Source: Nevskia sp. (GTDB lineage: Bacteria > Pseudomonadota > Gammaproteobacteria > Nevskiales > Nevskiaceae). Taken from it: DNA of 64,000 nt. Where the stretch lies: NCBI GenBank assembly GCA_019689635.1, contig JADGHB010000003.1:1-64000 (forward strand). Reading direction: 5' to 3'. This document shows, piece after piece, positions 46,060 through 55,004 of the stretch. Below the pieces are notes generated by a model. The model was not told where the DNA came from and ran no database searches. It was given only the letters and a program-made list of their open reading frames with translations. The stretch's first letter is position 1, and each line of letters opens with the position of its first letter. A program made the position numbers and the translations under genes.

Positions 46060-46124
46060 GACCCGGCCCGTTCCCGCGGCCGTTCCGGCTTTCGCGCCGC
46101 TCCTCCCCCGATTGCGAGTTGCCC

Positions 46125-47231
46125 ATGAACGACGACCCTGCCACCGCCGCCTGGAGCGATACCGCGCTGGCCTTCCAGAACCACATCCTGCCGCAGGTCT
46201 CGCGCACCTTCGCGCTGACCATTCCGCAGTTGCCCACCGGCCTGCGCGAGGCGGTGGCCAACGCCTACCTGCTGTGCCGCGCCGCCGATACCGTCGAAGA
46301 CGAACCGCACCTGAGCGCCGCCGACAAGCGCCGTTACGAGGAAGCGCTGATCGACGTGGTCACCGGCCGCGCCGACGCGGCCGCGTTCGCCGCCGAGCTG
46401 GCGCCGCGTCTTTCGGCGCAAACCCTGCCCGCCGAGCGTGAGCTGATCGCGCGCCTGGGGCTGGTCATCGAAGTCACGCGTTCCCTGAACGGCGCGCAGC
46501 GCGCGGCCATCGAGCGCTGCCTCGCCGTGATGGGCCGCGGCATGCATCGCTTCCAGCAGAACGCCGGCCTGCAGGGGCTGCCCGATCAGCGCGCGCTGGA
46601 CCGCTACTGCTATTACGTCGCCGGCGTGGTCGGCGAAATGCTCACCGAGCTGTTCTGCGATCACCTACCCGCGCTCGCCGCGCGCCGCAAGGCGCTGCTG
46701 CGCCTGGCCGTGTCTTTCGGCCAGGGCCTGCAGATGACCAACATCCTCAAGGACCAGTGGGAGGACCGCGCGCGCGGCGCCTGCTGGCTGCCGCGCGAGG
46801 TGTTCGCCCGCCACGGCCTGGAGCTCGGCGCGCTGCAACCGGGCCAGCACTCGCCGGCCTACCGCGCGGCGCTGGACGAGCTGATCGGCGTGGCCCACGC
46901 CCATCTGCGCCGGGCCCTGGAATACACCTTGATGATTCCGCCCCGGCAGGCCGGCATCCGGCGTTTCTGCCTGTGGGCGATCGGGCTGGCGGTGCTCACG
47001 CTGCGCAACCTGCACCGGCGCCCGCAGTTCGCCTCGGGCGCGGAGGTCAAGGTTTCGCGCGCCGCCGTGGCCCGCACCATCATGGTCACCAACGTCGCGG
47101 TCGCCCGCGACACGCTGTTGCGCCGGCTGTTCGCGCTGGCCTGGCGCGACCTGCCGCTGGCCGAGCTGCCGCCGAGCTGGGGCGACGAGGCGCTTCCCGC
47201 GACGTCCGCCGAGCCGCTGCATCCCGTCTGA
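46125..47231 (+). CDS. Squalene synthase (farnesyl-diphosphate farnesyltransferase)
   Basis: Head-to-head condensation of two farnesyl diphosphates. The 368 residues have SRTFALTIPQLP near the N-terminus, the first Asp-rich motif DTVEDE, YCYYVAGVVGEMLTELF, and the second motif QMTNILKDQWEDRARGACWLP. The pattern fits one-enzyme squalene synthases as in methanotrophs better than the HpnC/HpnD/HpnE three-enzyme route; no HpnD or HpnE genes are nearby. NADPH use is implied, not seen. ATG 46125. First gene of the run ending in hpnA. Confidence 0.82.
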   Translation: MNDDPATAAWSDTALAFQNHILPQVSRTFALTIPQLPTGLREAVANAYLLCRAADTVEDEPHLSAADKRRYEEALIDVVTGRADAAAFAAELAPRLSAQTLPAERELIARLGLVIEVTRSLNGAQRAAIERCLAVMGRGMHRFQQNAGLQGLPDQRALDRYCYYVAGVVGEMLTELFCDHLPALAARRKALLRLAVSFGQGLQMTNILKDQWEDRARGACWLPREVFARHGLELGALQPGQHSPAYRAALDELIGVAHAHLRRALEYTLMIPPRQAGIRRFCLWAIGLAVLTLRNLHRRPQFASGAEVKVSRAAVARTIMVTNVAVARDTLLRRLFALAWRDLPLAELPPSWGDEALPATSAEPLHPV

Positions 47232-47280
47232 TCCCGACCGCGACCGCCGCGCGGTCGCCGAACCCGAGAAAGCCAGACCC

Positions 47281-49218
47281 ATGAGCGTCGTTTCGATCCT
47301 GCGCGCCCCGGCGCGCACCGCCAGCGAACCGTTGGACCGCGCCATCGCCGCCGCGCGCGAAGCGCTGCTGAATCTGCAACAGCCGGACGGCCACTGGTGT
47401 TTCGAGTTCGAAACCGATTGCACCATCTCGTCGGAATACATCCTGATGATGCATTTCCTCGACGAGATCGACGAAGCCTTGCAGGAAAAGCTCGCGCGCT
47501 ACATTCGCGCCCAGCAAGTGCTGGACGGCCACGGCGGCTGGCCGCTGTATCACGGCGGCGCGCTGGATCTGTCGTGCACGGTCAAGGCCTACTTCGCGCT
47601 CAAAGCCGCCGGCGACGACCCCGAGGCACCGCACCTGCGGCGCGCGCGCGAGGCGATCCTCGCCGCCGGCGGCGCGGCCAAAAGCAACGTGTTCACGCGC
47701 ATCCTGCTGGCGACCTTCGGCCAGGTACCGTGGCGCGCGGTGCCCTACGTGCCGGTGGAAATCATGCTGTTTCCGAAGTGGGCACCGTTCCATCTCGACA
47801 AGATCTCCTACTGGGCGCGCACGACGATGGTGCCGCTGTTCATCCTGATCGCGCTCAAAGCGCAGGCCAAGAACCCGCGCGGCGTGCAGGTGCGCGAACT
47901 GTTCGTCACGCCCCCCGAAAAAGAGCGCCACTACTTCACGGCCCGGAGCGCGGCGGACCGGTTCTTCCTGGTGCTGGACCAGCTCGGCCGCCTGTGCGAT
48001 CCGCTGATCCCGAAATCCCTGCGCGCGCGCGCGATCAAGCGCGCCGAGGAATGGTTCCTGCCGCGGCTCAATGGCGAGGACGGACTGGGGGCGATCTTCC
48101 CGCCGATGGTCAACGCCCTGGAGGCGATGACCCTGCTCGGCTATCCCAAGGACCATCCCGCGCGCACGACCTGCCTCAAGGCCCTGCAGAAACTGATCGT
48201 GCATCGCGCAGACGGCAGCGCTTACTGCCAGCCCTGCGTGTCGCCGGTGTGGGACACGGCCTGGAGCGCGATGGCCCTGCTGCGCGCCGGCGAGGACCCG
48301 CGCACCCAGTCCGCCGTGCGCCGCGCCTTGGAGTGGCTGGCGCCCTTGCAGGTCACCGAACTCGCCGGCGACTGGGCGGTGCAAGCGCCGGAGCTGCCGC
48401 CGGGTGGCTGGGCCTTCCAGTACGCCAACGCCTATTACCCCGATCTGGACGATACCGCGCTGGTCGCCGGCCTCATGCACGTCGCCGACCGGCAGACTCC
48501 CTATCGCCGGCGCATCGAACGCGCCGCGGACTGGCTGGTGGGCATGCAATCCGACAATGGCGGCTTCGCCGCCTTCGATCGCAACAACACCCACACCTGG
48601 ATCAACCACATTCCCTTCGCCGATCACGGCGCCATGCTCGACCCGCCGACCGAAGACGTCACCGGCCGCGTGCTCGCCTGCCTGGGCGTACTCAGGCGCG
48701 AGCAAGACCGGCCGGTCATCCGGCGAGCGGTGGACTATCTGAAAAAGTGCCAACGGCCGGACGGTTCGTTCTGGGGTCGCTGGGGCACCAATTACATTTA
48801 CGGCACCTGGAGCGTGCTGGCCGGGCTGGCGCTCGCCGGCGAGGACTTGCAGCAGCCCTGGATCCAGAAGGCGATCGCCTGGCTCAAGTCCAAGCAACAT
48901 GCCGATGGCGGCTGGGGCGAGACCAACGACAGCTATCTCGATCCCCAACTCGCCGGCACCAATGGCGGAGTCAGCACTCCGCAGTCCACCGCCTGGGCGC
49001 TGCTCGGCTTGTTCGCAGCCGGACAGGCGCATTCCGAGGCTGCGCGCCGTGGCGTGGCCTGGCTGCTGGAACATCAGGGCGACGACGGACTGTGGCACGA
49101 CCCGAGCTTCAACGCGCCCGGTTTCCCGCGCGTGTTTTATCTCAAGTACCACGGCTACACCGCCTACTTCCCGCTGTGGGCGCTGACGCGCTACCGTCAA
49201 CTGACCGCCCCGCGCTGA
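47281..49218 (+). CDS. shc: Squalene-hopene cyclase
   Basis: Cyclizes squalene to hopene/diplopterol at the membrane. 645 residues, standard length. The catalytic DXDD is DLDDTA (388-393), with multiple QW repeats including QQPDGHWCFEFE, QKCQRPDGSFWGRWG and KQHADGGWGETNDSYLD. Starts 49 bases after the squalene synthase gene and is followed by hpnG after 14 bases, an operon. Confidence 0.96.
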   Translation: MSVVSILRAPARTASEPLDRAIAAAREALLNLQQPDGHWCFEFETDCTISSEYILMMHFLDEIDEALQEKLARYIRAQQVLDGHGGWPLYHGGALDLSCTVKAYFALKAAGDDPEAPHLRRAREAILAAGGAAKSNVFTRILLATFGQVPWRAVPYVPVEIMLFPKWAPFHLDKISYWARTTMVPLFILIALKAQAKNPRGVQVRELFVTPPEKERHYFTARSAADRFFLVLDQLGRLCDPLIPKSLRARAIKRAEEWFLPRLNGEDGLGAIFPPMVNALEAMTLLGYPKDHPARTTCLKALQKLIVHRADGSAYCQPCVSPVWDTAWSAMALLRAGEDPRTQSAVRRALEWLAPLQVTELAGDWAVQAPELPPGGWAFQYANAYYPDLDDTALVAGLMHVADRQTPYRRRIERAADWLVGMQSDNGGFAAFDRNNTHTWINHIPFADHGAMLDPPTEDVTGRVLACLGVLRREQDRPVIRRAVDYLKKCQRPDGSFWGRWGTNYIYGTWSVLAGLALAGEDLQQPWIQKAIAWLKSKQHADGGWGETNDSYLDPQLAGTNGGVSTPQSTAWALLGLFAAGQAHSEAARRGVAWLLEHQGDDGLWHDPSFNAPGFPRVFYLKYHGYTAYFPLWALTRYRQLTAPR

Positions 49219-49232
49219 ACCGCGGCCCGGCC

Positions 49233-49970
49233 GTGGTCGGCATCGTGGTCGCCCTGGCCGGCGAGGCGCGTGTCCTGGCCCCCGGCATAGGCCCCGAGCG
49301 CATTCATCCGCTCGCGGAAAACGTACGCGCGATCGTTTGCGGTGCAGGGCCGCAGCGCGCGCGCGACGCGGCGCGGCGACTGGCGGCCTCCGGCGTCCAC
49401 GCGCTGGCGAGCTTCGGCACCGCCGGCGCCTTGGCGTCCGAGCTGGGCAGCGGCGCCTGGCTGCTGCCGCAGCGCATCCTCACCGAGGACGGCCGGTTCT
49501 TTTCCGCCGCTCACGATTGGCGCGCGCGGCTCATGCAGCTGCTGCGCCGCGCCGCCGATCCGCGGCCGCTGCTTTCGGTGTCCGCGCCCCTGTTCACGCG
49601 CGAGGCGAAAGCCGAAGCCGCGCGCCGCACCGGCGCCTGCGCGGTGGACATGGAGAGCGCGGCCATTGCGGCCGTCGCCGCCGAATGCGGACTGCCTTTC
49701 CTGTGTCTGCGTGCCGTGGTGGACCGCGCCGACCAGACCCTGCCGCGCGCGGCGATCGAAGGCGTGGATATGTACGGTCGCGCGCGTTGCCTCGCGCTCG
49801 CCGCCGCCTTGCTGAGCCGGCCCGGCGAACTGCCGGCGCTCTGGCGGCTGGGTCGCGGTTTTGCACGCGCGCGACGCGCGCTGGCGCTGGCGCTCGAGCG
49901 CGTGGGCCGCGACCTGGCTTTTCCGGCGCCGGGGGAACCCGCCGCCGCGCCGCGCGCCACAACGCCTTGA
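49233..49970 (+). CDS. hpnG: Hopanoid nucleosidase/phosphorylase HpnG
   Basis: A 245-residue member of the nucleoside phosphorylase/MTA-SAH nucleosidase fold. HpnG removes adenine from adenosylhopane to give ribosylhopane in bacteriohopanepolyol synthesis. Visible features are the N-terminal VVGIVVALAGEARVL, the CGAGPQRARDAARRL stretch, ASFGTAGAL, and ACAVDMESAAIAAVA with the conserved ME. Start GTG 49233. Lies between shc and hpnA. No HpnH gene, which makes adenosylhopane, is in the window. Confidence 0.88.
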   Translation: MVGIVVALAGEARVLAPGIGPERIHPLAENVRAIVCGAGPQRARDAARRLAASGVHALASFGTAGALASELGSGAWLLPQRILTEDGRFFSAAHDWRARLMQLLRRAADPRPLLSVSAPLFTREAKAEAARRTGACAVDMESAAIAAVAAECGLPFLCLRAVVDRADQTLPRAAIEGVDMYGRARCLALAAALLSRPGELPALWRLGRGFARARRALALALERVGRDLAFPAPGEPAAAPRATTP

Positions 49971-49982
49971 GGTTTTTTGAAG

Positions 49983-50978
49983 ATGTCCGTTCCCGAAAAA
50001 GCCCTGGTCACCGGCGCCACCGGCTTCGTCGGCTCCGCGGTGGCGCGGCGCCTGCTCGCGGCAGGCGTCGCGGTGCGTGCGCTCGCGCGTCCCCGTTCCG
50101 ACCGCCGCAATCTCGAAGGCTTGCCAGTGGAAATCGTCGAAGGCGATCTCCTCGATCCGCCCTCGCTGGCGCGCGCCTGCGCGGGCTGCGACGCGCTGTT
50201 CCACGTCGCCGCCGATTACCGCACCTGGGCGCCGCACCCCGAGGAACTCTATCGCGCCAACGTCGAAGGCACGCGCGCCATGCTCAGCGCCGCCCAAGCC
50301 GCGGGAGTGGCGCGCGTGGTCTATACCAGCAGCGTGGCCACGCTGGGCCTCCCCAAGGACGGAACGCCCGGCGACGAGGACAGTCCGGTCACGCTCGCCG
50401 ACATGGTCGGCCACTACAAGCGCTCCAAGTTCCAGGCCGAAGAAGTCGCGCGCGAATTCGCCGCCCACGGACTGGACGTGGTGATCGTCAACCCTTCGAC
50501 GCCCATCGGTCCGCGCGACGTCAAGCCCACCCCCACCGGGCGCATCGTGCGCGACGCCGCGCGCGGACGCATCCCCGCCTTCGTGGACACCGGCCTCAAC
50601 GTGGTGCACGTGGACGACGTGGCCGAAGGGCATTGGCTGGCTTATCTCAAGGGCGCGCGCGGACAGCGCTACGTGTTGGGCGGTCACGATATGAGTCTGC
50701 GCGAAATCCTTGCCGAAATCGCACATCTCGTCGGCCGCAAGCCGCCGCGAATTTCCCTCCCGCACGCGGCGGTCATGCCGGTGGCCTACGTCGCCGAAGC
50801 CTGGGCGCGACTCAGCGGCCGGCCGCCGCTCGCCACGCGCGAGGAAGTGCGCATGGCGAAAAAACACATGTATTTCTCGAGCGCCAAGGCCGAGCGCGAG
50901 CTCGGTTACCGCGCGCGCCCCGCACGCGCGGCGCTGGAAGACGCGCTGCGCTGGTTCCGCGACCACGGTTACCTCTGA
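49983..50978 (+). CDS. hpnA: Hopanoid-associated sugar epimerase HpnA
   Basis: A 331-residue NAD(P)-binding extended SDR protein, the family that accompanies hopanoid genes; the exact step is uncertain. Rossmann motif VTGATGFVGSAVARRLL at about 9-25, YTSSVATLG, and Y-X3-K in HYKRSKFQAEEV. VVIVNPSTPIGPRDVKPTPTG is characteristic. Last gene of the run, and tRNA-Met follows about 84 bases later. Confidence 0.9.
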   Translation: MSVPEKALVTGATGFVGSAVARRLLAAGVAVRALARPRSDRRNLEGLPVEIVEGDLLDPPSLARACAGCDALFHVAADYRTWAPHPEELYRANVEGTRAMLSAAQAAGVARVVYTSSVATLGLPKDGTPGDEDSPVTLADMVGHYKRSKFQAEEVAREFAAHGLDVVIVNPSTPIGPRDVKPTPTGRIVRDAARGRIPAFVDTGLNVVHVDDVAEGHWLAYLKGARGQRYVLGGHDMSLREILAEIAHLVGRKPPRISLPHAAVMPVAYVAEAWARLSGRPPLATREEVRMAKKHMYFSSAKAERELGYRARPARAALEDALRWFRDHGYL

Positions 50979-51061
50979 ACCCGCGCGCGAACGCGCTCGC
51001 GCCGCCGGCCGGTTTTCTTTAAACTTCACCGCCCGGCAAACTTCCCGATCTCCCGGACCAC

Positions 51062-51138
51062 GGCTAGGTAGCTCAGTCGGTCAGAGCGCGGCACTCATAA
51101 TGCTGAGGTCGGCGGTTCGATCCCGCCCCTAGCCACCA
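51062..51138 (+). tRNA. tRNA-Met (CAT)
   Basis: A full cloverleaf. Acceptor GGCTAGG pairs with CCTAGCC; D-arm in GCTCAGTCGGTCAGAGC; anticodon loop CTCATAA with CAT; T-arm GGCGG-TTCGATC-CCGCC. The CCA end is encoded at 51136-51138. The shape and acceptor are those of elongator tRNA-Met rather than the initiator, since position 1 pairs normally. Confidence 0.95.
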
Positions 51139-51273
51139 CCCCATCATCCGCGACGATCGGCGTGGTATTCCCCGCTCGCCACTCCGACGATGCCCCGAAC
51201 GGCCGATCACGCCAGTGCCGGGGCCAGCGCCGAGCATTTAGTTTTCCTAAACCTCAGACGCAGGAAATATCAA

Positions 51274-51302
51274 TTGTTGCAGCGCGGCAAAGGGCGTATA
51301 AA
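51274..51302 (+). promoter_or_regulatory. Promoter of the candidate small RNA
   Basis: TTGTTG (51274-51279), 17 bases, then TATAAA (51297-51302). It lies 136 bases after the tRNA and points at a short terminator-ended unit. Predicted start near 51309. Confidence 0.65.
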
Positions 51303-51308
51303 TTCGCC

Positions 51309-51418
51309 TCGCATCGTACCGTCGCTTCGCCCCTCCCCCGAGCAGCGGCGGTCTCAATGTCTCCTCCAGATCCCGCACGGGATCCTTCGGGCCGCGAACC
51401 CCTCGCGGCCCTTTTTTT
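51309..51418 (+). ncRNA. Candidate C-rich-loop small RNA
   Basis: A predicted transcript of about 110 nt between the promoter above and a strong terminator. Stem 1 (51318-51352) pairs ACCGTCGCT with AGCGGCGGT, closed further by TCG/CGA, leaving a loop CCCCTCCCC. A linker TCTCCTCCA (51360-51368) is complementary to Shine-Dalgarno sequences. Stem 2 is GATCCC-GCAC-GGGATC (51369-51384). Stem 3 is the terminator with loop ACCCC. No open frame follows on this strand. The design recalls C-rich-loop sRNAs such as Xanthomonas sX13; homology is not claimed. Confidence 0.55.
51389..51418 (+). terminator. Rho-independent terminator of the candidate sRNA
   Basis: GGGCCGCGA-ACCCC-TCGCGGCCC is a nine-base perfect stem followed by seven T. 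It is among the strongest terminators in the window. Confidence 0.92.
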
Positions 51419-51749
51419 GTGCCGGCGTTTCGCCAAGGATCGATCTTACAACGGCAATCCCAACCTCGCCCAGTTCTGCGCCGTGGGCATTGATTCGGTC
51501 CCGGTCGATCCCCCGGCCCTCCGCGTCGAGCGCAAGGGCGCGGTGGCCTGACGCGCGTGACGCGTGGAGTTCGCTGCAAAACCGGCGAGGCTTGCGTGCC
51601 GAACGCGTGGTTCACGCCGACGGAGGGTCTTTGGACGAGGGTGATTCGCGCGTGGATGCGCTAACCCCAAGCATGGATGCTGATGCGCGAAAAGTCATCC
51701 CCGGCGTTTCGGCCCAAGCGGGTGCGACCGAGAGCGCTTGGCGATCGCT
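51419..51749. other. Gene-free stretch after the sRNA
   Basis: About 330 bases between the terminator and the 3' end of the RND gene. Short frames exist, including one with a fragment RSYNGNPNLAQFCAVG, but none has a start with ribosome-binding site or a family I recognize. It could be gene debris. Confidence 0.4.
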
Positions 51750-54700
51750 TTATGGTTTGCGTTCCGCCCGCGCGACGGCTGCACTGTCCGCGCGTCGGTA
51801 GTGATAGGCGTAATACACTGTCGGGATGACGAACAGCGTCAGCAGCGTGGACACGAAGATGCCGAAGATCAGCGATACCGCGAGGCCCGAGAAGATCGGG
51901 TCGTCGAGGATGAACAGCGCGCCGATCATGGCCGCCAGGCCGGTGAGCGCGATGGGCCGGGCGCGCACCGCGGCGGCGCGGATCACCGCCTCCTGCAAGG
52001 GCCGGCCGGCCGCGGTTTCCAGGCGCACGAAGTCCACCAGCAGGATGGAATTGCGCACGATGATGCCGGCCAGCGCGATCATGCCGATCATGGAGGTGGC
52101 GGTGAACTGGCGGCCGAGCAAGGCGTGGCCCGGCAGAATGCCGATCAGCGTCAGCGGAATCGGCGCCATGATGACCAGCGGCACGCCGTAAGATCCGAAC
52201 TGCGCCACCACCAGCAGGTAGATCAGCACCAGGCCCACGGAGTACGCGATGCCCATGTCGCGGAACGTCTCGTAGGTGATCTGCCACTCGCCGTCCCACT
52301 TCAGGCTCCAGGCAGTCGGCGTATCGGGCTGGGCGATCAGTTTCTGCACGATCGGCTGGCCATCCGGCAGCGGCGTGTGCGAGAGCTTCGCGGCAATCTC
52401 CGCCATGCCATAGAGCGGGCTGTCGGTGCGGCCAGCCATGTCGCCGACCACGTACACCACGGGCAGAAGATCCTTGTGATAAATGGACTGGTCGCGCGTG
52501 GTCTGCTCGATCGTGGCGATCTCGCCGACCGGCACCAGGGCGCCGTCGCGCGCGCGCACGCGCAGGAGTTTGAGCGCGTCGAGGTCCGATTTTTCCGCCT
52601 CCGGCAGCTCGACGCGCACCGGGATCGGATACTTGCTCTGATCGCTGTGCAGGTAGGACACGTCCGCGCCGCGCAGTGCCATCGTCAGTGCATCCACCAC
52701 CGTGTCCTGGCTCACCCCCAAGCGTTCGGCGCGCGCGCGGTCCACGGCGAAAATGAGTTTTTTCTGCGGGGCCTCGATCGAACTGTCCACGTCGACCACG
52801 CCGCCGGCCGACTGGAACGCTTTTTCGACGAGGCGCGCGACGCGGATCTGGCCGGCGTAATCCAGCCCGTAAATCTCCGCCACGATCGGCGCCAGCACCG
52901 GCGGTCCTGGAGGGACTTCCACGATCTTGACGTTGGCGCCGAAGCGCTCGCCGATCTTTTGTAACGGCCCGCGCACCGCCATCGCGATCTGGTGGCTCTG
53001 GCGGCTGCGGTGACGGCGGTCCACCAGGTTCACCTGCAGATCGCCCTGATACGGTTCGGCGCGCAGGTAGTACTGCCGCACCAGGCCGTTGAAGTTGATC
53101 GGCGAAGCGGTGCCGGCGTAGGTCTCCACGTCCGACACCTCCGGCACGGTGCGCAAGTAGGCGGTGAGCGCGGACAGCACGCGCTGCGTGTTCTCCAGCG
53201 CGGTGCCCTCCGGCATGTCCACCACCACCTGGAACTCGGATTTGTTGTCGAACGGCAGCATCTTGAGCACCACCGCGCCAAAGACGACCAGCGCGATCGA
53301 AGCCGTGATCGCCGTGACCACCCCAATCAGCAAGCCGATGCGCTTGCGCCGGCCGCGTTCGCGGTTGAGGAAGGGCGATAGCCAGCGGGTGAAGAATCCC
53401 AGCAGCGCCGGCCGGTCGGCCGCGACGTCGCCGACGCCGTGGCCGACGTGGTGATGCGCCAGTAGCTTGAGCGACAACCAGGGCGTGAGCACGAAGGCCA
53501 CCGCCAGCGAGAGCAGCATGCCCAGGCTGGCGTTGATCGGGATTGGCGCCATGTACGGCCCCATCAGTCCGGTGACGAAAGCCATGGGCAGCAGCGCGGC
53601 GATCACGGTGAGCGTGGCGAGGATGGTCGGCCCGCCGACTTCGTCCACCGCATACGGAATCGCTTCGCGCAGCGACCGGCCGCCGAGGTGCATGTGGCGG
53701 TGGATGTTTTCGACCACCACGATGGCGTCGTCCACCAGGATGCCGATGGAGAAGATCAGCGCGAACAGCGAGACGCGGTTGAGGGTGAAGCCCCAGGCCC
53801 AGGACGCGAACAGCGTGATGAGCAGCGTGACGATCACCGCAGTGCCGACCACCACCGCCTCGCGCCGCCCCAGAGCGAACAACACCAGCAGTACCACCGA
53901 GCCGGTGGCGAAAACCAGCTTCTCCATCAGCGTCAGCGCCTTGTCCTCGGCGGTCAGGCCGTAGTCGCGCGTCACCGTGGCGCGCACCGCGTCGGGCACG
54001 TACACGCCGCGCAACTGCTCGAAGCGCTGGACCACGCGGTGCGCGATGACCACCGCGTTCTGGCCGGGTTTCTTGGCCACCGCGATGGTCACGGCGGGGA
54101 AACAACCGTATGGCGGCGCACGATCCGCCGCGCCGGTGCAATACTGAACGTAATTTCGTGGCGCCTCGTCGCCGAGCCACACCTCGGCCACGTCGCGCAA
54201 GTAAACCGGTCGACCGGCGAAGCTGCCGACCACCAGATCGGCGACTTCCTCGGGTCGCATCAGGAACGATCCGGCCTGCACCTGGATATCCGCGTCGTCC
54301 CGCACCAGCACGCCGGCATCGGCGGAACGGTTGGCACCAGCGAGCGCGCGGCGCAGGTCGGAGGGCGCCAGACCGTGGGCGGCCAGGCGCTGGGCGTCGA
54401 GCGCGACGTGCACGATGCGCTCGGGCCCGCCGATGGTGTAGATGTTGCGCGTGCCCGGGATGCGCTTGAGCTCGGCTTCCAGCGCGTGCGCCACGCGCAG
54501 CAGTTCGCCGTCGGTCACGTCCGGCCGCTCGCTCCACAGCGTCAGCGCGACCACCGGCACGTCGTCGATGCCCTTGGGCTTGATCAGCACCGGCCCAACG
54601 CCGATGTCGCGCGGCAGCCAGTCCTGATGCTCGTAAAACGCGTTGTACAGGCGCAGGATGGCGTCGCTGCGCTTCTCGCCGACCTTGAACCGCACCGTCA

Positions 54701-55004
54701 GCAGCGCCAGCCCGGGACGCGAAACCGAATAAACATGATCCACGCCCGAAATTTCCGAGGCGACCTGCTCCGCGCCATTGGTGACGAGCTGTTCGACCTC
54801 CTTGGCCGATGCGCCGGGGAACGGGATGTACACGTTGGCCATGGTCACGTCGATCTGCGGCTCCTCCTCGCGCGGCGTGACCAGCAGCGCGAAGCCGCCC
54901 ATCAGCACGCCGACCAGCGCCAACAGCGGCGTGATGCGCGACTCCAGAAAGGCGCGCGCGATGCGCCCCGCGAGCCCCAGGGAGGACGCCCCGGCGGCGC
55001 TCAC
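51750..55004 (-). CDS. RND-family efflux pump subunit
   Basis: A 1084-residue inner-membrane proton-driven antiporter of the AcrB/CzcA superfamily. The first membrane segment at 25-42 is followed by porter domains (REEEPQIDVTMANVYIPFPGAS), then a membrane block with VDDAIVVVENIHRHM in TM4, which holds the proton-relay aspartates. A second half repeats the pattern. Substrate class cannot be assigned; it is neither a clear HAE1 nor a clear metal pump. Overlaps the fusion protein gene by four bases and lies in an operon headed by a BigR-like regulator, which suggests a sulfur-linked substrate. Confidence 0.92.
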   Translation of the reverse strand: MSAAGASSLGLAGRIARAFLESRITPLLALVGVLMGGFALLVTPREEEPQIDVTMANVYIPFPGASAKEVEQLVTNGAEQVASEISGVDHVYSVSRPGLALLTVRFKVGEKRSDAILRLYNAFYEHQDWLPRDIGVGPVLIKPKGIDDVPVVALTLWSERPDVTDGELLRVAHALEAELKRIPGTRNIYTIGGPERIVHVALDAQRLAAHGLAPSDLRRALAGANRSADAGVLVRDDADIQVQAGSFLMRPEEVADLVVGSFAGRPVYLRDVAEVWLGDEAPRNYVQYCTGAADRAPPYGCFPAVTIAVAKKPGQNAVVIAHRVVQRFEQLRGVYVPDAVRATVTRDYGLTAEDKALTLMEKLVFATGSVVLLVLFALGRREAVVVGTAVIVTLLITLFASWAWGFTLNRVSLFALIFSIGILVDDAIVVVENIHRHMHLGGRSLREAIPYAVDEVGGPTILATLTVIAALLPMAFVTGLMGPYMAPIPINASLGMLLSLAVAFVLTPWLSLKLLAHHHVGHGVGDVAADRPALLGFFTRWLSPFLNRERGRRKRIGLLIGVVTAITASIALVVFGAVVLKMLPFDNKSEFQVVVDMPEGTALENTQRVLSALTAYLRTVPEVSDVETYAGTASPINFNGLVRQYYLRAEPYQGDLQVNLVDRRHRSRQSHQIAMAVRGPLQKIGERFGANVKIVEVPPGPPVLAPIVAEIYGLDYAGQIRVARLVEKAFQSAGGVVDVDSSIEAPQKKLIFAVDRARAERLGVSQDTVVDALTMALRGADVSYLHSDQSKYPIPVRVELPEAEKSDLDALKLLRVRARDGALVPVGEIATIEQTTRDQSIYHKDLLPVVYVVGDMAGRTDSPLYGMAEIAAKLSHTPLPDGQPIVQKLIAQPDTPTAWSLKWDGEWQITYETFRDMGIAYSVGLVLIYLLVVAQFGSYGVPLVIMAPIPLTLIGILPGHALLGRQFTATSMIGMIALAGIIVRNSILLVDFVRLETAAGRPLQEAVIRAAAVRARPIALTGLAAMIGALFILDDPIFSGLAVSLIFGIFVSTLLTLFVIPTVYYAYHYRRADSAAVARAERKP

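Follow-up and report, generated by a model that had tools for sequence, protein, structure and literature searches.

We identified a unit at positions 51274-51418 of the window, the whole 64,000-nucleotide stretch of Nevskia sp. DNA that was analysed, that probably encodes a small regulatory RNA with a predicted transcript. It belongs to a family of structured RNAs whose kind is already known, the double-hairpin anti-Shine-Dalgarno sRNAs. Judged by sequence, the closest described relative of the unit is RF02278, the "toxic" or double-hairpin sRNAs of Betaproteobacteria. Its promoter contains a palindrome that is probably a binding site for PhaR, the PHB-granule repressor. The value of the analysis lies in this putative operator, which offers a candidate answer to what controls such sRNAs and suggests a switch. 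The features are collected in Table 1.

Table 1. Features of the unit and its surroundings (window positions, except for phaR)
Feature	Position	Strand	Basis or remark
LysR-type-like box TTAGTTTTCCTAA	51238-51250	+	centred at about -66 from the expected start
PhaR-like palindrome AATTGTTGCAGCGCGGCAAAG over -35 and spacer	51272-51292	+	published S. meliloti consensus; core exact, one arm mismatch
Sigma-70-like promoter	-35-like TTGTTG 51274-51279; 18-nt spacer; TATAAA 51298-51303	+	read directly
Predicted sRNA transcript, about 109 nt	51310-51418	+	start near 51310 inferred from the -10; fold
5' hairpin with CCCCTCCCC loop (51330-51338)	51311-51360	+	predicted; not conserved
Anti-Shine-Dalgarno linker TCTCCTCCA	51360-51368	+	unpaired in the predicted fold
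Hairpin 2, GATCCC GCAC GGGATC	51369-51384	+	stem 51369-51374/51379-51384; loop GCAC 51375-51378
Hairpin 3 and T7, intrinsic terminator	51389-51418	+	stem 51389-51397/51403-51411
Terminator loop ACCCC; T7 run	51398-51402; 51412-51418	+	read directly
Family core	51348-51418	+	covariance-model search; model R1, 82.2 bits
RF02278 match	51358-51418	+	Rfam search; 32.9 bits
tRNA-Met	51062-51138		position given
RND-type pump, next gene after the unit	51750-55004	-	named by reading of the ORF
phaR in G000	C80:66270-66449		PF07879, 98.9 bits; PF05233 also present

The sequence and structure of the unit are confirmed. A preliminary description had proposed a stand-alone sRNA-like unit with a promoter pair, three hairpins and a T7 terminator. 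The promoter pair, the stems of hairpin 2 and the terminator and the T7 run were read directly, the three hairpins are predicted, and 51274-51418 folded at -60.2 kcal/mol (z = -3.75), a value that none of 200 shuffles reached. A T/A-rich -10 was seen by eye at a like place in most relatives. The description also held that no gene follows on the same strand, and we saw no plausible + strand gene just downstream. The predicted RNA of 109 nt folds with CCCCTCCCC as its first loop. Its linker is unpaired at 0.94 or above in eight of nine bases and at 0.17 in the first U, in agreement with the claim of an open anti-Shine-Dalgarno linker. The open linker and the conserved stems described below therefore make translational repression the likely action. 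On the other side of the tRNA, a hopanoid gene cluster occupies 46119-50978, with phytoene/squalene-synthase-like, squalene-hopene-cyclase-like and hopanoid epimerase-like ORFs named from their translations.

We compared the unit with described RNA families. The best Rfam match was RF02278 (E 4.4e-5 in 301 nt); MmgR (RF00519) scored 24.7 bits (E 0.0036, gathering score 41) and ncS54 19.0 bits. Because the RF02278 score is below the gathering score of 50, we did not file the unit under that family. With RF02278 as its neighbour and MmgR and ncS54 scoring lower, it is not the new kind of small RNA it had been taken for. Rfam gave six matches at E up to 10, none of them named sX13, the RNA that the description had cited as a parallel. 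Among 14 further loci, two of them from the genome that carries the window (G000), six matched RF02278 at E up to 1 (24.6-35.6 bits), and no sRNA family reached its gathering score.

The unit shares with RF02278 (ncS03, ncS05, ncS27, ncS62 and Bordetella S17) a TGTCTCCTCC 5' element and two hairpins, the second of which is a rho-independent terminator. Like RF02278, the core has an unpaired UGUCUCCUCC at its 5' end. This stretch is open when the 62-nt core is folded by itself, and folding of the full-length RNA pairs the first U of UCUCCUCCA. A PhaR-like palindrome upstream, found here, and several copies per genome are further common features; available passages give three to five copies per Burkholderia genome and four in Herbaspirillum (PMC5688073, PMC7011215). 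The unit differs in its first core hairpin, whose loop is the short GCAC where that of RF02278 is CU-rich (Site 2 of S17), in its Nevskiales host, and in the extra TTAG box and the LysR gene beside many members.

Other systems resemble the unit in part. The enteric sRNA GcvB lies beside a GcvA-type LysR gene; its pairing element differs from that of the unit, and no GcvB match to the unit appeared in Rfam at E up to 10. MmgR/alpha-r8 (RF00519) and Caulobacter SisA-D are described as PHB-related, Hfq-associated RNAs with a PhaR site in the promoter, and SisA as repressing under nutrient-rich conditions (available parts of PMC12542648 and PMC12559287). With the MmgR score below its gathering score, this is a likeness that does not imply common descent. 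The Neisseria NmsR siblings, by their description in the accessible text of PMC5688073, resemble it in having two unpaired CU-rich segments whose sequence is complementary to ribosome-binding sites.

We searched for relatives with R1, a covariance model of the core built from eight sequences (the unit, its paralogue and six others). The description had called for such a search and for compensating changes in the stems, and both gave positive results. The TCTCCTCCA linker was invariant in the first alignment of these eight sequences. Of the 58 family genomes, 33 contained R1 matches at E<=0.001; tandem arrangements were among them, with three matches in G027 and two in G017. In an alignment of 52 matches (A2, 50 distinct), all 17 pairs changed on both sides, 8/8 in hairpin 2 and 9/9 modelled pairs in hairpin 3. 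Cells changed on both sides numbered 153 (31.5 in shuffles), and 95.5% of cells were paired (73.5% shuffled, 37-52% in slid controls), in an alignment that was fitted to the structure and so leans to it.

G000 measures 2.81 Mb, is 98.5% complete and was placed with Solimonas and Nevskia (Nevskiales, Gammaproteobacteria); G005 and G017 belong to the same genus as the window. It holds three R1 members, the unit, the C80 paralogue (76.4 bits) and a copy at 23.8 bits. The count stops at three because weaker matches (22.0, 18.4 and 15.7 bits) did not look member-like by eye, being a terminator after an ORF, a terminator-less stretch and an unrelated hairpin. A search for the exact core pattern, which may have left out records of the window's own genome, gave 11 stretches from named genomes: seven have Solimonas, Nevskia or Sinobacteraceae in their titles, and the remaining four come under different MAG titles. 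No near relative was matched by the window unit among phages or by the L132 unit among plasmids.

Conservation covers the linker, hairpin 2 and the terminator but not the 5' hairpin or the position beside tRNA-Met. The C-rich first loop emphasised in the description is thus no family-wide feature, as short-leader relatives cannot form the CCCCTCCCC hairpin, and we rejected a conserved C-rich 5' hairpin on account of these near-leaderless members. In those with the shortest leaders (both copies of L049, L050, L051, L191) the palindrome starts 36-41 nt before the linker, and the leader of the unit is about 50 nt with its own hairpin. The site after tRNA-Met, offered as a typical sRNA location, gave way likewise: the neighbours of other members are LysR genes or phaR. 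Among the matches listed, the best matches of relatives to 51050-51430 cover query 13-100 at most and end at the tRNA-Met or within 11 nt of it; we rejected conserved linkage since their similarity stops there. The interpretation in the description is, overall, partly supported. Other members have palindromes 244-345 nt upstream, with a small ORF between. Such long-leader members (L024 on the - strand, L055, L056, L057, L065, L066, L192) encode 34-81 aa, for example MFATIIVASVAASL..., with a hydrophobic start, after AAGGAGGT in L055-L057. S17L, too, is reported to contain a 32-aa ORF.

The palindrome over the -35 and spacer, like the box upstream of it, is absent from the preliminary description. 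It matches WNWD2NYGCRNYGCRNH2WNW, the S. meliloti PhaR consensus, for which the mmgR promoter site is CAATTGTGCACCGCAGCATTA (accessible part of PMC12542648). By eye, the relatives share TTGTTGCGNYGCAACAA over the -35 and spacer, and the window has CAATTGTTGCAGCGCGGCAAAG. The palindrome of the unit is one of three G000 sites with at most one mismatch to TTGYTGCRNYGCARCAA; the C80 paralogue and the phaR-linked copy match only with two arm mismatches. We counted sites upstream of the 44 intact Nevskiales members, leaving out eight of the 52 R1 matches that lack an intact linker and one of 45 rows (window - strand, 38261) that is not a member. A site with exact core and at most one arm mismatch lay within 300 nt in 35/44, one only via a tandem neighbour's box. 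The background was 24 matches in 226,590 bp (0.032 per 300 nt), and shuffles gave 7/900. Allowing 420 nt and two arm mismatches, 40/44 had a site; among these, the tandem copies in L049 and L053 are listed with the neighbour's box, though each has its own, and L068 and L072 carry the palindrome at unusual places. No box preceded any of the eight excluded R1 matches, which score low and lack an intact TCTCCTCC linker (0/8).

The same palindrome precedes RF02278 loci in f112, a second family, represented by 60 genomes from 60 genera, in which RF02278 was positive in 51 and above its cut-off in 40; this last count is why we take f112 to be Burkholderiaceae. From the best 30 loci, each of another genus, L138 was left out because its upstream DNA is missing. 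A site within 160 nt was present at up to one, two and three arm mismatches in 16, 25 and 28 of 29 loci, in 0, 6 and 29 of 435 control windows of the same loci, and in 17, 51 and 121 of 870 dinucleotide shuffles of the upstream regions. The loci in all these box counts are related and so not independent. Genome-wide, up to three mismatches gave 139 places and the reversed control 218, a useless count, and we therefore relied on one or two mismatches with positional controls.

We examined the link to phaR and PHB. The phaR gene is present in 58/58 Nevskiales-family and 60/60 f112 genomes. Its co-occurrence with the sRNA therefore cannot discriminate, and 25 of the 58 family genomes have phaR and no R1 match at E<=0.001. 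The only mismatch-free TTGYTGCRNYGCARCAA site in G000 lies just upstream of a phasin-like gene (Phasin_2 at 19.7 bits, below the Pfam cut-off of 24.9), with a second palindrome, TGCACTGCA, beside it. The third G000 sRNA copy is downstream of phaR and has its own palindrome at the -10. G013, G033 (where the phaR match is partial, 28 bits) and G078 repeat this gene order, with the sRNA some 500-570 nt away from the PhaR domain match. A TCTCCTCCAGAAAGGCC subtype comprises L124, L075, L076 and L201, all downstream of phaR, and L196, which is not beside phaR; its palindrome is close to the -10 and it has no TTAG box.

PhaR has been described as repressing the PHB sRNA MmgR in S. meliloti by way of its promoter site (passages of PMC12542648), and in Cupriavidus necator as moving onto granules (passages of PMC11332829 and PMC12542648). 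The accessible B. cenocepacia text states the regulator of its sRNAs as unknown (PMC5688073), and that on S17S postulates an unnamed repressor at the promoter (PMC11722255). PhaR and PHB terms are absent from the texts of both papers. Titles, abstract openings and passages of the literature on PhaR and sRNAs, with few subscription papers among them, yielded the MmgR work and no link to RF02278. A PhaR-type operator before the sRNAs of RF02278-bearing f112 and Nevskiales would thus name a candidate regulator that can be tested.

A second putative site lies upstream of the palindrome. Of the 40 palindrome-bearing Nevskiales members, 32 have a TTAG-N5-CTAA box with at most one mismatch (26/800 shuffles), and in 31 of these it stands at the same spacing from the palindrome. 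LysR-type proteins commonly bind around -66. Of 38 loci with a located member, 20 have an adjoining LysR gene (GcvA-type by reading of the protein start), which is divergent in 11 and convergent in 9; the search covered 38 of the 40 loci, the window and L124 lying outside it. The window copy has no linked LysR gene and keeps the box, from which we infer LysR regulation in trans. At L024, the C80 copy of G000, the last codons of a convergent LysR ORF run antisense through the sRNA core, so that the sRNA and the LysR mRNA would overlap.

From the observed sequence, structure, conservation and operator-like site, we consider it likely that the unit is a PhaR-repressed, PHB-relieved double-hairpin sRNA of the RF02278/S17 type that blocks carbon-uptake mRNAs. 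We infer for this model that the unit is transcribed, bound by PhaR and a LysR protein, and acts by repression on particular targets. When little PHB is stored, free PhaR would occupy the palindrome that overlaps the -35 and spacer, keeping the gene off. In carbon excess PHB granules would form, PhaR would shift to them and the promoter would open, in Nevskiales probably with help from a LysR protein of the GcvA type acting at the -66 box. The RNA would then build up and, in full or as the core of about 62 nt, pair via UCUCCUCCA with ribosome-binding sites, blocking translation of carbon-uptake and catabolic mRNAs. Uptake would therefore be throttled once storage is under way.

The model fits what accessible parts of two papers describe. 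The double-hairpin RNAs ncS03, ncS05 and ncS27 of B. cenocepacia rise 8.0-, 6.9- and 4.3-fold in glucose medium, ncS62 being absent from that table, and their predicted targets are carbon-compound mRNAs (PMC5688073). Ribosome-binding sites, among them those of transporter genes, are the reported pairing partners of S17S, and transporter genes are raised in an S17 mutant (PMC11722255). Our own target evidence in G000 is thin. The description had suggested target prediction at start regions, and a search for TGGAGGAGA-N2-10-ATG did give two perfect start sites where the reversed control gave none; they belong to genes read as solute-binding-like and acetyl-CoA-synthetase-like proteins. The duplex energies added nothing to this (38 and 7 of 200 shuffles as low), because the program ignores internal structure.

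We weighed three other explanations. The main regulator of the same anti-Shine-Dalgarno sRNA could be the GcvA-type LysR protein, with the palindrome a second LysR site or a promoter part. GcvA regulates GcvB in enterics, and both the adjoining LysR genes and the fixed spacing of the TTAG-N5-CTAA box would fit. We find this unlikely, as the palindrome also precedes the f112 RF02278 loci, where a LysR query found none in 30 loci at E 1e-8, and five AGAAAGGCC-subtype copies without a TTAG box. The palindrome is moreover that of the published PhaR consensus and also precedes the phasin-like gene. Less probable still is that PhaR controls the promoter and the RNA is mainly a global brake titrating ribosomes or Hfq, not acting on chosen mRNAs. 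Such titration would explain the toxicity reported for relatives, whose overexpression is toxic to E. coli or slows growth (passages of PMC4603805 and PMC5688073); the linker is a bare anti-Shine-Dalgarno, and only two G000 start sites match TGGAGGAGA perfectly. Against it, S17 work reports derepressed genes that have matching sites, along with compensatory mutations for one target, and S17S overexpression left exponential growth of E. coli unimpaired (passages of PMC11722255).

That the unit is what remains of the leader or attenuator of a gene since lost, with no function in trans, is very improbable. The C80 paralogue, with more than 300 nt and a small ORF between promoter and core, would suit this origin. 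In most palindrome-bearing members, however, the palindrome lies within 160 nt of the linker, so that most members are short stand-alone units, and covariation is strong across the whole family.

If the PhaR/PHB model is true, carbon storage would be tied to global translational control outside Alphaproteobacteria. A wider reading is that one ancient storage-coupled system unites the anti-Shine-Dalgarno sRNAs found in alphaproteobacteria (MmgR/SisA), in betaproteobacteria (RF02278, S17) and in some of the gammaproteobacteria: PhaR would sense PHB granules and, by means of these sRNAs, shut carbon uptake, and the long-unexplained "toxic" sRNAs would be the riboregulatory arm of PHB storage. We hold this only tentatively and think it somewhat more doubtful than not. 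RF02278 is described as so far confined to Betaproteobacteria (PMC7011215), and the family of the unit extends beyond them. Among 274 class genomes, RF02278 matched 83 at E<=0.001, two above the cut-off. The best 30 loci of this class search, which include L078 and L079 from f112, had a box at up to one, two and three mismatches in 2, 5 and 5 cases. phaR was found in seven of the 30 genomes, in poor locus-by-locus agreement with the box: three of the five box genomes had no phaR match (G290, G203, G163), five of the seven phaR genomes had no box at the examined locus (G303, G173, G225, G293, G221), and the two coincided only in G187, which belongs to f112, and G167. In most of 28 class loci (L080-L107) there is a CTCCTCCATCCTCCTTTGGTGG double-hairpin RNA that is nearly the same from locus to locus and scores below the RF02278 cut-off, and a PhaR-type box at up to two mismatches precedes four of the 28.
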